In this document: in pieces, positions 59,804-64,000 of the stretch
How positions within the stretch are numbered: the first letter of the stretch is position 1
Layout of the letters: every line of letters begins with the position of its first letter
DNA from: Stutzerimonas nosocomialis
Lineage (GTDB): Bacteria; Pseudomonadota; Gammaproteobacteria; Pseudomonadales; Pseudomonadaceae
NCBI RefSeq assembly: GCF_005876855.1
Contig: NZ_QLAE01000027.1
Location: forward strand, 1 to 64,000
Direction of reading: 5' to 3'
Length of the DNA: 64,000 bases
The notes under the pieces: model-generated
What the model was told of the DNA's origin: nothing
What the model saw: the letters and a program-made list of their open reading frames with translations, nothing else
The model's database searches: none
Made by a program: the position numbers and the translations under genes

Positions 59804-60036
59804 CGACCATGGGGCCAGCACCCTGGCCCCTGGAACCCACCCTTGAAAAGCCGCGCGGCCGCATCCATCTCGTCGCCTGAGGGTTCGACGTGGCCGAGAC
59901 ATTGGCGTAGACTACGCGTTCGACATCCCCTCGCGGATGTTCGGGGCCGATTAGGATTCGACGCCGGTAACAAAACTCTAGGTGCATGCCGAGTTGGTAA
60001 CAGAACTCGTAAATCCACTGTTGCAAACTTATAGTT

Positions 60037-60078
60037 GCCAACGACGACAACTACGAAGGGTACGCGCTAGCCGCCTAA
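60037..60078 (+). other. tmRNA-encoded proteolysis tag reading frame
   Basis: Resume codon GCC through TAA: A-N-D-D-N-Y-E-G-Y-A-L-A-A. Three residues longer than the P. aeruginosa tag as I recall it (ANDDNYALAA). Confidence 0.9.
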
Positions 60079-60295
60079 CCTTCATCTGGTCGCTTCGGCG
60101 CCAGCGGTCACTAGGGGATGCCTGTAAACCCGAAATGACCGTCAGATAGAACAGGATCGCCGCCAAGTTCGCTGCAGACGTAACGGCTAAAACTCATGCA
60201 GCTCGCTCCAAGCACCCTGCCAATCGGGCGGCGCGGAGTTAACTCAGTAGGTTGGATAAGCATGTAGTACCGACAGTGGAGAGCTGGCGGACGGG

Positions 60296-60320
60296 GGTTC
60301 AAATCCCCCCGGCTCCACCA
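60296..60320 (+). other. Probable attachment site: 3' end of ssrA
   Basis: The T-arm/acceptor end of ssrA (GGTTCAAATCCCCCCGGCTC then CACCA) is a common target for tyrosine integrases, and a recombinase gene begins 98 bases after it. The ssrA gene remains intact, as expected for attL. The matching attR would be a copy of part of this sequence beyond the right edge; none is in the window. Confidence 0.6.
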
Positions 60321-60330
60321 ATTCAACACT

Positions 60331-60355
60331 GAAACCCGTCTAGAACGCGGGTTTC
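60331..60355 (+). terminator. Hairpin just past ssrA
   Basis: GAAACCCG (60331-60338) and CGGGTTTC (60348-60355), nine-base loop. No T tract follows. Could be the ssrA terminator or, if the element boundary lies inside ssrA, a recombinase-related structure. Confidence 0.5.
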
Positions 60356-60375
60356 AGCCCAGATTTGATGGCATT

Positions 60376-60403
60376 GGATTACTCACAGTCCGTCTGTGAA
60401 TCC
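60376..60403. repeat. Inverted repeat upstream of the first recombinase
   Basis: TCACAG (60383-60388) and CTGTGA (60394-60399) around TCCGT, flanked by GGATT and ATCC that extend the symmetry with a small bulge. It lies just before the recombinase start and could be an operator or a recombinase-binding arm. Confidence 0.45.
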
Positions 60404-60418
60404 AAAAGGTATGCCATC

Positions 60419-62860
60419 ATGTCCAAGCGCCAAAGCAAAACGGGTGTCCCCCACCTGGTCTATCAAGCCAACACTGGCTTCCAGTACTACCTCACATTCC
60501 CGAAGCATTTCGCGGCCAACCCGAAACTGCCTGCGCAAATCCGGTGGTCGCTCAGCCACGACGAAGCCCTGGCCCGCGATCTCGCTAAGTACCTGAATGC
60601 TTCTTTCGAGCAGTTCCTTGCCAAGGCAACCGAGCACTATGTCGAGCTCTTTTCTGACCGCCTGCTGGTTGACCTCCAAAGGTTTCACTTAGCGGTAGCG
60701 GAAGCACTCAAATTCGCCGACCGGGTTTGGAAAGTCCGCCCGTCGCCCATGAAGCTCGCGAACCAAGACCTTTCGGTCGCCCACGCTCGCATGATGAAAG
60801 AGAGTGCCGAGCGTGTAGTGCTCTATAGCCACGAGCCAGGGGGCGAAATTTTCTTCGCACTCACACCAACGCCCGCACTGGTAAAAGCGCTTGGGGTCGG
60901 GTTCGTACGCTTTGACTGGCCGCTCGGAACCAGCAACCAGTACGTGGCGAGCGACGCTGCCCGGTACATTTACGCCGCCCTTGATGTACTCGAGACCGTC
61001 CCACCCTCTCCAGGGCGCTATTCGAAAGAATCTCCTGCATTTGCAGCGATGACGCTTTATGAATACCTGTGCCATGCCCGCCCAGACCAGGGTCGGAATC
61101 TCATGCACATCCCCCCAGCACTACCGCAATCTCGGCAAGCTTTGCATTTTCATCTTCAGCAAGCCAACGCGATGCATCTGAAGCTCCGCATCATTGATCG
61201 AGCGCTCTTGGTGCAGGAGGAATCGGGGCTTTATGTGATGCTTATCGAACTTGATCCGCTGTGCATGAAAGCGCATCTGAGAGAAAAGAAAAGCTTTCGG
61301 GTTGAGCTGCTCACTAGCTCCATCATCATTGCAGTCCTCATGCTGACGTATACGCTGCAGAAGGTTGATAAGGTGCTGTTGCGTTACTTTCAGGAAGACG
61401 ATCACGAAGATCCTTACACCCAGGCGATGCAGGAGATCGGCGACCTCGTTCGGCGGATGTTGGGCTCCGCTGCAACCACCGAGCCTATGCAGACGATTCC
61501 GGAGCTGAACTCACCAACAGATGCTGTGGCACCGCCGCAGGATCCTGGCACGCTCGCCTTACTAAATGCACTCGGGAGCATTCTGCCTGACGCGCAGAAA
61601 GCCAAGCTTGAAAGCCTGTTTACGCAGCCCTCTGTCAACGAACGCATTGTCTCGCCGACGTGCAGCCCAAAGACAGGGCTGAGCCTCGCCGCATTGGTGA
61701 AGGAATACGAAGAGAGGCAGGTCCGCGAAGGTGCATGGGCCAATCCGCGGACTCGCATCACCGCACGGGCCCGGCTGGAAGGCCTGTGCGAGCTGCTTGG
61801 TGGGCACCGGCAAGTCGAGACGCTGACTCGCGCTGAATTCAACACGCTACGCGATCATCTGCGTAGCTATCCGAAGAACCGGCATCGCCTCCGTGCCACG
61901 CGTAACCAGCCGCTGAGTAAGATCATCAGCGACGGTAAATTCGAGCCAATCAACCCTCGCACTGCGAAGAAGTTTTTCGAATTGGCGAGGGCGCTTGTCA
62001 CCTACGCACATGATCAAGGCCACATCACCGAAAACATCGCGGCCGGATTGGCGTTCAGCACGAAAGGTGCCGAGGCGCCTAGGAAGCGCACATATAGCCC
62101 AAGCCAAATCGAGAAGCTGCTTCACGGCCCGGCCTACACGTTAACCAAGCCGCCGCGCTGGCGTCTGGACGACTTTAAGTTTTGGCTTCCGCTGCTCGGT
62201 CTCTATACCGGCGCACGGCTTAGCGAACTCTGCCAGCTGCGGCTGGAAGACATTCGGCAGGAGCTCGGCGTTTGGATCATCAGCATCAATCGGACAGGGT
62301 CGAAGCAACTCAAAACGTCCGACTCTGAACGGCTAGTGCCCATTCACAAGCAGCTGATCGAGACAGGCTTCCTCGACTATCACCAAGCTCGCCTGGACAT
62401 AGTTAAGCAGGATATGAAAGCTCCTCTTTTCGAAAATATCCGTGTCTACGGTGATCTTTCTCCTGGGCACGTTGCGAGTCGTTGGTACCTGGGCTCAAGC
62501 CAGAGCAGTCATGGCTACTTGGGGCTCTGCGGCCTCGGAGAGGAGGGCCTGACGTATCACGGCCTACGGCATACTTTTATCAACCAATTCCGCAGACAGA
62601 ACCTCGACCTCGCGAAAGCTAAAGCACTCGTGGGTCACGCTGATAAAAGTACAACTGGCGGCTATGGCGACTGCTATCCGGCAGGCGTCCTCAAGGACGA
62701 GCTCGACAAAATCGATTTCGGCCTTGGCTTGGACCACATCCATTACCGGCACTATCAGGGGCTCCAGAAAGCACAAGGTGACTTCAAAGTCGGGCGGCCG
62801 GTGGGCACGCCATTCCCGAACGTGCGAGCTCCGAAGCGCCACTGGAAATCGTACGCATAA
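60419..62860 (+). CDS. Large tyrosine-type site-specific recombinase (island integrase)
   Basis: 813 residues, about twice the size of typical phage integrases. The C-terminal catalytic domain is complete: R600 (TGARLSEL), K632, H714 and R717 (YHGLRHTF), H740 (VGHADKST) and nucleophile Y749 (GGYGDCY). A SAM-like core-binding domain lies about 440-580. The first 430 residues are of uncertain role, with a hydrophobic stretch near 297-312 (SSIIIAVLMLTYTL). The start MSKRQSK has AAAAGGT nine bases upstream; a longer frame from 60365 is possible. G+C is visibly lower than upstream. Inferred integrase of an ssrA-inserted island. Confidence 0.88.
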   Translation: MSKRQSKTGVPHLVYQANTGFQYYLTFPKHFAANPKLPAQIRWSLSHDEALARDLAKYLNASFEQFLAKATEHYVELFSDRLLVDLQRFHLAVAEALKFADRVWKVRPSPMKLANQDLSVAHARMMKESAERVVLYSHEPGGEIFFALTPTPALVKALGVGFVRFDWPLGTSNQYVASDAARYIYAALDVLETVPPSPGRYSKESPAFAAMTLYEYLCHARPDQGRNLMHIPPALPQSRQALHFHLQQANAMHLKLRIIDRALLVQEESGLYVMLIELDPLCMKAHLREKKSFRVELLTSSIIIAVLMLTYTLQKVDKVLLRYFQEDDHEDPYTQAMQEIGDLVRRMLGSAATTEPMQTIPELNSPTDAVAPPQDPGTLALLNALGSILPDAQKAKLESLFTQPSVNERIVSPTCSPKTGLSLAALVKEYEERQVREGAWANPRTRITARARLEGLCELLGGHRQVETLTRAEFNTLRDHLRSYPKNRHRLRATRNQPLSKIISDGKFEPINPRTAKKFFELARALVTYAHDQGHITENIAAGLAFSTKGAEAPRKRTYSPSQIEKLLHGPAYTLTKPPRWRLDDFKFWLPLLGLYTGARLSELCQLRLEDIRQELGVWIISINRTGSKQLKTSDSERLVPIHKQLIETGFLDYHQARLDIVKQDMKAPLFENIRVYGDLSPGHVASRWYLGSSQSSHGYLGLCGLGEEGLTYHGLRHTFINQFRRQNLDLAKAKALVGHADKSTTGGYGDCYPAGVLKDELDKIDFGLGLDHIHYRHYQGLQKAQGDFKVGRPVGTPFPNVRAPKRHWKSYA

Positions 62861-62876
62861 GGCCTAGCCAAACAGA

Positions 62877-62903
62877 GGCGGGAGTCCTGCTCCTGCCCTT
62901 TTT
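62877..62903 (+). terminator. Terminator after the first recombinase
   Basis: GGCGGGAG/CTCCTGCC stem (one G-T pair) with a five-base loop and a CTTTTT tail, 17 bases past the stop codon. Confidence 0.75.
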
Positions 62904-62918
62904 ACACATCCCTTAATT

Positions 62919-62935
62919 ATTGACAAAGTGTCAAT
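62919..62935. promoter_or_regulatory. AT-rich palindrome upstream of the second recombinase
   Basis: ATTGACA-AAG-TGTCAAT, perfect seven-base arms. It includes a consensus -35 (TTGACA), so a regulator bound here would cover a promoter. The surrounding 62905-63000 stretch is much more AT-rich than the rest of the window. Confidence 0.5.
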
Positions 62936-63003
62936 AGAAACTATCGAATGTAATTTTCCAATAGATTATCTTGACTGGTCATTTATACAGTAATAATCTC
63001 GAG

Positions 63004-63020
63004 CCTCACCCACCGTGAGG
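63004..63020 (+). promoter_or_regulatory. Hairpin that includes the ribosome-binding site of the second recombinase
   Basis: CCTCAC (63004-63009) pairs perfectly with GTGAGG (63015-63020) across a five-base loop. The right arm is the likely Shine-Dalgarno sequence, five bases before the ATG at 63026, so translation may be restrained. Confidence 0.55.
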
Positions 63021-63025
63021 TATAT

Positions 63026-64000
63026 ATGAATGTAACGTCCCCTATCTCCATTCCTTTTTATAAGGGCCTGAGTCTGATTGTAGAGCCTGGCCATGAAGAG
63101 CACTTGCGAATCGCCTTGGCGAACATCTCCGCGGTAACGGACGCGATCAACCGCTTCCACTCTTCACCGTTACTTACCGAGTTCATGGACACTACGCTGT
63201 CCCGCTTCCTGCGAGAAAACACTTACGCAGGAAAGTCCGAGCATATGCTGCGGGCTCGAATGGAAAAGCTGAAGGTCATCCTGACCCGAGATAACCCTAC
63301 ACGCCGAGTCGCTGAGCTTGATCGAGCTGATGTGCAGCGTCTAAAGGATCAGTTGCCATTGTTACTGAAGCAGAACTCGGCTTCGGGAAGTAAAGGCGCA
63401 AACCTCACGACCTATTACCAGCTGTTCAATCGCATGCTGGACGAGGCGCTGGAGAGCAAGCTGATTACTGATGCGATCAAGGTTGCTACTTGCAGTACAA
63501 AACAGGCCGAGGTCACCAAGCCATTTCTAGATAGCAACCTGATTCAGATGCTCTCCGGCTGGCCTTACCAAAAGTACCTCGCGGGCACACTGCCTAAGGT
63601 CTACCAAGACGCCAAGCCGTATCGGTTCTGGTTGCTTCCTCTCGGGCTCTACACCGGCGCGCGGCTCAATGAACTCTGCCAGCTTCGTGTGCATGATGTG
63701 ATCCGGGATGTCCACGGCGTAGAGCTCATCGACATAAACGATAACGGCTACAACAAGTCGCTAAAAACGGGCTCATCGGCACGGCAGATTCCGATCTGCA
63801 CGAAGCTTGTGGAGATGGGTTTTATAAATTTCGTAGAGGAACGACGTCAGGCCGATGGCAACGATGCATTGCTTTTCGGCGAGCTGAGCTTTGACCCGAA
63901 GCACTTATACTCCCGCGATCCGAGTCGTTTTTTCTGCGGGCCGTGTACGGGAACGGGATACATCGGTCAGCATTGTCCGCCGGCCGTTAATGGCGGGCTC
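63026..64000 (+). CDS. Second tyrosine-type recombinase (partial, runs off the window)
   Basis: 325 codons are open to the right edge with no stop. A SAM-like core-binding region (about 55-165: FLRENTYAGKSEHMLRARM, NLTTYYQLFNRMLDEALE) precedes the catalytic domain. R213 is in LYTGARLNELCQLR, matching the R600 region of the neighbour (YTGARLSELCQLR), and K247 in SLKTGSSARQIPI matches its K632. The HxxR, H and Tyr boxes would lie beyond the window. A CGPC and a further cysteine occur near 305-317. It is a divergent relative of the first recombinase, not a duplicate. Confidence 0.85.
   Translation, partial: MNVTSPISIPFYKGLSLIVEPGHEEHLRIALANISAVTDAINRFHSSPLLTEFMDTTLSRFLRENTYAGKSEHMLRARMEKLKVILTRDNPTRRVAELDRADVQRLKDQLPLLLKQNSASGSKGANLTTYYQLFNRMLDEALESKLITDAIKVATCSTKQAEVTKPFLDSNLIQMLSGWPYQKYLAGTLPKVYQDAKPYRFWLLPLGLYTGARLNELCQLRVHDVIRDVHGVELIDINDNGYNKSLKTGSSARQIPICTKLVEMGFINFVEERRQADGNDALLFGELSFDPKHLYSRDPSRFFCGPCTGTGYIGQHCPPAVNGGL

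Follow-up and report, generated by a model that had tools for sequence, protein, structure and literature searches.

The question raised by this locus is which enzyme, or which enzymes, move an island that begins at the 3′ end of ssrA and carries two tyrosine recombinase genes, here termed P1 and P2, in tandem at its left end. The window, meaning the whole 64,000-base stretch of DNA that was analyzed, corresponds to bases 1 to 64000 of contig C27 (64194 bases) in a Stutzerimonas nosocomialis genome of 4.76 Mb and 86 contigs.

An integrative island at the 3′ end of ssrA

The ssrA gene (tmRNA, tag ANDDNYEGYALAA) was detected by ARAGORN and Rfam (RF00023, 193.8 bits) at 59943..60320 on the forward strand; it was the integration target and its 3′ end was intact. 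The G+C content changed at the end of this gene, from 0.58 to 0.69 over the first 60 kb to 0.54 to 0.56 in the last 4 kb, confirming a drop in base composition described in the earlier note. The 3′ end of ssrA, designated the attL core (60294..60322, forward strand), was repeated at the start of another contig of the same genome (G000:C20:125-153), and this second copy, designated attR, matched over 29 bp with 97% identity. Crossover probably takes place within the attL core at TTCAAAT, in what we take to be the ssrA T-loop.

P1 was detected at an E value of ≤1e-60 in 24 of the 56 genomes of the genus, a count that includes a P1 fragment in G017. The possibility that these genes are fixed neighbors of ssrA was rejected, as P1 was missing from the other 32 genomes. 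Exact copies of a 23-base core numbered two or more in 20 of the 24 carriers and one in G004, G006, G019 and G043. The ssrA copy and another core copy were present on a single contig in eight carriers and were separated by 57 to 153 kb (57 kb in G014, 58 kb in G003, 61 kb in G036, 72 kb in G033 and G029, 82 kb in G023, 114 kb in G008 and 153 kb in G028). The direct repeats measured 23 to 29 bp and left ssrA whole. P1 immediately followed an ssrA-type core in all carriers except G003, G008, G028 and G054 (20 of 24); the first three of these exceptions look composite because P1 does not adjoin ssrA there. The sequence just inside attR was conserved in all 21 right ends seen, 18 being of one type and 3 of another.

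A junction query, consisting of the ssrA end joined to the right flank, was scored as an unbroken alignment. Nine genomes of the genus had an unbroken junction with 81 to 88% identity (G001, G002, G009, G024, G025, G038, G042, G047 and G051), and none of these contained P1. A second core copy was located 55 kb downstream in G024 and 5 kb downstream in G025, where a different insert may be present, and G047 had an island fragment elsewhere in the genome. The direct repeat and the contiguous junctions of P1-free relatives demonstrated that this is a tRNA/tmRNA-site integrative genomic island, in agreement with the earlier note, which had placed the left end of a probable island in ssrA. That note had named two outcomes as refuting its reading, the lack of a directly repeated ssrA 3′ end within about 200 kb and the occurrence of both genes beside ssrA in every close relative, and both were contradicted by these results.

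In some genomes (G008, G054 and G531), ssrA was stacked with more than one element. By eye, an integrase-like gene was seen between ssrA and P1 in G008 (L042:1724-9947), and about 11.6 kb separated ssrA from P1 in G531 (L157).

The tandem recombinases P1 and P2 and a third recombinase, P3

P1 (60419..62860, forward strand) started 98 bp behind ssrA and encoded an 813-amino-acid tyrosine recombinase (PF00589, E value of 6.1e-12) with an N-terminal extension of about 400 amino acids. The catalytic set was complete (R600, H714xxR717, H740 and Y749, with a Lys between them), so that an earlier description of an 813-residue recombinase with all R-K-HxxR-H-Y residues less than 100 bases after ssrA was accurate. 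Structure prediction gave a mean pLDDT of 31.8. The gene was interrupted in G028 and G043. P1 of G003 (L063:1900-4482) looked chimeric, the first ∼50 residues being window-like and the rest nearer to no single type. A tblastn search with P1 returned 8 phage and 37 plasmid records; identity was below 60% throughout, and no record extended over 80% of the query. A profile of the N-terminal 400 residues, searched against 390 genomes of the order, matched only the window's own genome at an E value of ≤1e-8; this profile was built from four rows and was strict, and only two other genus members appeared among the rows listed.

P2 began at position 63026 of the forward strand and extended through the end of the window (63026..64000, 325 amino acids) to the contig end at 64194 (389 codons), the full-length protein of relatives having 419 amino acids. 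The window piece, being without the C-terminal part, scored 20.6 bits with Pfam, below the cutoff of 27.1 bits. Full-length relatives exhibited the pattern R-K-[K/R/Y]xxR-H-Y, and P1 and P2 had a common TGARL-ELCQLR box and 34 to 39% identity over aligned stretches, consistent with the assignment of both genes to one superfamily in the earlier note. The residues R-I, Lys, R-II, H-III and Tyr were kept in an alignment of 19 P2 proteins (G003 and G037 lie outside this alignment), with the box-II His replaced by Lys in 14, by Arg in 3 and by Tyr in 2. P2 of G003 stops before the catalytic Tyr, and P2 of G037 is cut near codon 384 by an IS-like sequence, a few codons upstream of the break in the window genome. 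The missing end of the window P2 (∼30 last codons) opens contig C51 read in reverse, with a 4-base overlap between C27 and C51. As the two contigs abut inside P2 with this overlap, an insertion element may interrupt P2 near codon 389; the overlap (window 64000 to 64194; L039:13760-13886) would be consistent with duplication of the target by such an element. With P2 as the tblastn query, 16 plasmid records were returned, again below 60% identity and with no record reaching 80% query coverage. A Phage_GPA-type replication protein was encoded directly behind P2 in G593 (L156:7979-9601).

P2 followed P1 in 23 of the 24 carriers of the genus; the remaining carrier, G017, had a P1 fragment at a contig end. 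The gap between the two was 165 bp in the window, with no gene between them. A P2 profile was run against 398 Pseudomonadaceae genomes and matched 52 of these at an E value of ≤1e-25, many of the matches being solitary integrases or P1 itself. At an E value of ≤1e-40, matches outside the genus came from 13 genomes of four other genera (G470, G481, G494, G520, G531, G550, G565, G570, G586, G590, G593, G694 and G706), and all 13 had a recombinase of 776 to 843 amino acids upstream of one of 409 to 471 amino acids on the same strand; the gap between the long and short genes exceeded 2 kb in G520 and G565. Matches within the genus at this threshold also included two fragments, one in G047 and one at a second place in G029. 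In a search of the class with the P2 profile (369 genomes of 271 genera), 11 genomes matched at an E value of ≤1e-20, and no match outside the window genome adjoined another; the matching frames there were of 379 to 594 amino acids, and a weakly scoring long partner could escape.

Trees were constructed from 19 P1 and 19 P2 proteins. The deep starred groups agreed between the two trees, and one starred shallow split conflicted (G494 was joined by G586 in the P1 tree and by G590 in the P2 tree); G593 had long branches. In a combined tree, the P1 proteins formed one group and the P2 proteins formed another, save for G531 and G481, which were placed beside P1 with moderate support. P1, P2 and P3, the last described below, are under purifying selection, with dN/dS values within the genus of 0.06 to 0.09 for P1 (10 pairs), 0.03 to 0.08 for P2 (6 pairs) and 0.10 to 0.13 for P3 (3 pairs). 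As judged from the sequences, P1 and P2 probably constitute one co-inherited two-protein recombinase module.

The third recombinase, P3, was an intact recombinase-like gene of about 300 amino acids (C51:3744-4676; weak PF00589 match, E value of 1.4e-4), located ∼19 kb beyond P2 on the other strand and read in the opposite direction. At ≥60% identity, P3 was present in 20 of the 24 P1 carriers (not in G003, G017, G019 or G043) versus 2 of the 32 other genomes (G047 and G050), an association with a Fisher P value of 2.5e-9 when kinship is ignored. It lay between the att copies in seven of the eight one-contig islands, the exception being G003. In five of the six genomes of genus g146, P3 was the next recombinase gene behind P2, about 140 to 330 bp further on; the contig of the sixth (G586) ends first. 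The location of P3 varied within Stutzerimonas, from 2.6 kb behind P2 in G036 to tens of kilobases in others, and it was remote in most of the islands placed. A conserved block of up to ∼2 kb accompanies P3, which, given this block and the variable location, could instead be a nested element. A pseudogene status, suggested by an in-frame TAG in nine rows, was rejected, as the TAG is at residue 11 and precedes the likely start, Met15. Distant P3-like genes without P1 or P2 were found a few kilobases from tRNA-Thr (L218:8961-10046 and L219:8351-9433); such solitary recombinases are perhaps the integrases of small elements.

The idea of a multi-recombinase system, put forward in the earlier note, gained support from the conserved pairing, including the recurrence of long and short genes in four further genera of the Pseudomonadaceae (13 genomes), from the largely congruent P1 and P2 trees and from the presence of a third recombinase in the island.

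Arm-like motifs, possible control sequences and a proposed model of integration

The left end of the element contained a hairpin, CTGAAACCCG...CGGGTTTCAG (60329..60357, forward strand), which is perhaps a terminator for ssrA; a similar hairpin was present in elements at tRNA-Gly. This was followed by an arm-like dyad (60374..60405, forward strand) consisting of TTGGATTACTCACAGT and its inverted partner CTGTGAATCCAA, and the 16-mer TTGGATTACTCACAGT recurred in inverted form, with 15 of 16 bases matching, at C20:49-64 in the right end. The inverted motifs were thus sub-terminal. None of 100 dinucleotide shuffles of these two arms exceeded 13 matches for the best left-right 16-mer. Both arm 16-mers of G029 were unlike the window type and matched each other at 14 of 16 bases (best frame). 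The match failed in G003, in which a first-type left arm was paired with a second-type right arm.

A leader hairpin (60366..60419, forward strand) was predicted to enclose the ribosome-binding site of P1 and to reach the start codon. Its z score ranged from −1.3 to −6.0 in 16 rows relative to mononucleotide shuffles, G481 being the weakest. Covariation was modest: 73.3% of cells were paired versus 68.1% in shuffles, and four other measures were divided, two exceeding nearly all shuffles and the other two failing to do so. The hairpin was made of different sequences in different families.

Between P1 and P2 there was a terminator-like stem-loop with a T-run (62877..62906, forward strand; stem at 62877-62897) and, upstream of P2, a perfect palindrome, TTGACA-AAG-TGTCAA (62920..62934, forward strand), a possible operator. 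The earlier note had regarded P2 as separately transcribed, which is plausible at most: the stem between the genes favors it, and against it, terminator-like sites were no more common than in shuffles (3 versus a mean of 4.0) and no promoter-like site was found (0 versus a mean of 2.1 in shuffles).

Taken together, these features lead us to favor a model in which the window holds the left end of an ssrA 3′-end island that moves by conservative tyrosine recombination, with P1 and P2 acting, and by implication catalyzing, jointly. P1 would bind the arm-like 16-mers near both ends, together with the T-loop core, and P2 would join the same complex. XerC and XerD each cut a different strand or half-site, and P1 and P2 would probably divide the cutting in a similar manner. 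Recombination at TTCAAAT would integrate the circle, with the ssrA 3′ end restored. The smaller recombinase P3, which the island retains, probably assists or directs the reaction, as in excision, for example. The joint role is proposed because P1 and P2 are co-inherited and their catalytic residues are kept.

As its box-II residue is altered, P2 may instead be structural or regulatory. P1, which adjoins att and has the full canonical set, would then be the sole integrase, and P2 would use its recombinase fold as a regulator or directionality factor that cuts no strand. The Lys, Arg or Tyr at the box-II position and the broken or cut P2 genes of G003 and G037 fit this alternative, which is nevertheless unlikely: the other five catalytic residues persist in all 19 aligned P2 proteins and the dN/dS values of P2 are as low as those of P1. 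An improbable alternative to joint action at a conservative site is a copy-out element resembling SE or Tn554, inserted at ssrA by chance, whose long and short recombinases would generate strand-biased circles. The long-plus-short architecture does recall Tn554-related tandems as outlined in PMC3414803, and several recombinases occur in SE and GInt elements according to the accounts in PMC10214605 and PMC5385486; nevertheless, the direct repeats of 23 to 29 bp that leave ssrA whole, the relatives contiguous across the junction, the sub-terminal inverted arm motifs and the absence of an intervening gene in the P1-P2 pair of the window all count against it. Chance stacking of two unrelated integrases in an insertion hotspot, for which the stacked ssrA loci of G008, G054 and G531 provide a precedent, was rejected as very improbable because the P1 and P2 trees are congruent in depth (with the one starred shallow conflict remaining), the order and strand of the pair are kept over five genera and no core copy, with up to four substitutions allowed, occurs between P1 and P2 in the window.

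Relation to known elements, insertion sites and cargo

The island is set apart from GInt, SE and RIT elements by gene order. It resembles GInts in having several tyrosine recombinases at one end and a large variable cargo, and these occur in the same species group (P. stutzeri DSM 4166). According to PMC5385486, the ginABCD genes of GInts, with GinD included, are transcribed together as an operon, and the imperfect repeats measure 10 to 11 nt in the set of GInts that was described first. The ginA-ginB-ginC-ginD adjacency was absent here: only two recombinase genes were adjacent, 165 bp apart with a terminator-like stem between them, P3 was remote (∼19 kb off, on the other strand) and the repeat was 23 to 29 bp. 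SEs are likewise site-specific elements of Gammaproteobacteria with two tyrosine recombinases near one end, and a median size of 15.7 kb is given for them in PMC10214605; the order intA-tfp-intB-srap was missing from this island, which has P1 and P2 with 165 bp between, and the islands of relatives were 57 kb or more. As summarized in PMC3414803, the Tn554-related tandems of actinobacteria combine one abnormally long recombinase (611 to 828 amino acids) with one of normal size. In architecture, the tandem of 813 and 419 amino acids conforms to this, in other hosts and with a tmRNA or tRNA as the target. RIT proteins are described as having 315 to 410 amino acids and overlapping genes (PMC10214605 and PMC3414803). 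Three recombinases in a row, as in RITs, were found as P1-P2-P3 in five g146 genomes, with lengths of 776 to 843, 409 to 471 and about 300 amino acids and with gaps between the genes; in the window genome, P1 has 813 amino acids, 165 bp separate P1 from P2 and P3 is remote. Ordinary islands and IMEs at tRNA or tmRNA sites share the integrase beside attL, the repeat of the gene 3′ end and the variable cargo; what sets this island apart from them is a second recombinase that is conserved and a third that 20 of the 24 carriers possess. No tandem two-recombinase island at ssrA/tmRNA was found in the open literature among the matches listed, and an earlier description is possible.

We tentatively suggest that mobile elements of this kind form a class of their own at tmRNA/tRNA sites in the Pseudomonadaceae. 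They would be moved by a heteromeric machine in which two tyrosine recombinases (P1 and P2) are obligate and a third (P3) is auxiliary; the arm sites of the two ends would match, and P1 would be placed under a start-codon hairpin. Such a class, if it exists, would represent a third solution, next to single-integrase islands and to the operons of GInt and SE, and island movement may take an enzyme team rather than a single integrase. The single roles of the recombinases have not been established for RIT/Tn554-like elements or SEs in the accounts consulted (PMC3414803 and PMC10214605, respectively). The P1-P2 module could be used to test directly why certain mobile elements require two or even three tyrosine recombinases: its pairs are naturally co-inherited, its att sites are defined and lie in a conserved RNA gene, its arm motifs are matched, and a single genus supplies many hosts.

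The 13 pairs outside the genus were located right behind a tmRNA gene in six genomes, behind tRNA-Gly(ccc) in two (G520 and G565) and behind a partial or different core in five. In G694, G586, G494 and G550 (L146, L148, L150 and L152), a different half-core, GTTCAGATTACCCCGGCCCACCA, rather than ssrA, was present to the left of P1, which suggests a secondary site or a tandem array.

Cargo on C51 (L110) included a cytosine methylase next to homologues of MzaB and MzaC (Mza-type defense), together with an AAA protein, a WYL regulator and a protein in which a short stretch was ZorC-like. No relaxase or conjugation gene was found among the 11 of 19 C51 open reading frames scanned with Pfam, this contig covering part of the island. 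By eye, the far end of C51 resembled the start of another integrase. Of the 33 open reading frames of the G036 island, 10 were scanned; one encoded a TraI_2 protein of relaxase type and another a BrxC/D protein. In Stutzerimonas, ssrA is a carrier site for large islands, some with defense genes. A MobA/VirD2 relaxase with an LPD7 domain flanked the P1-P2 pair in all three relatives scanned, G520 (L154:9790-11205), G531 (L157:8630-11038) and G481 (L158:8708-11254), which suggests that these relatives are mobilizable. As cargo and relaxases differ among the elements, the P1-P2 module appears to serve elements of different make.
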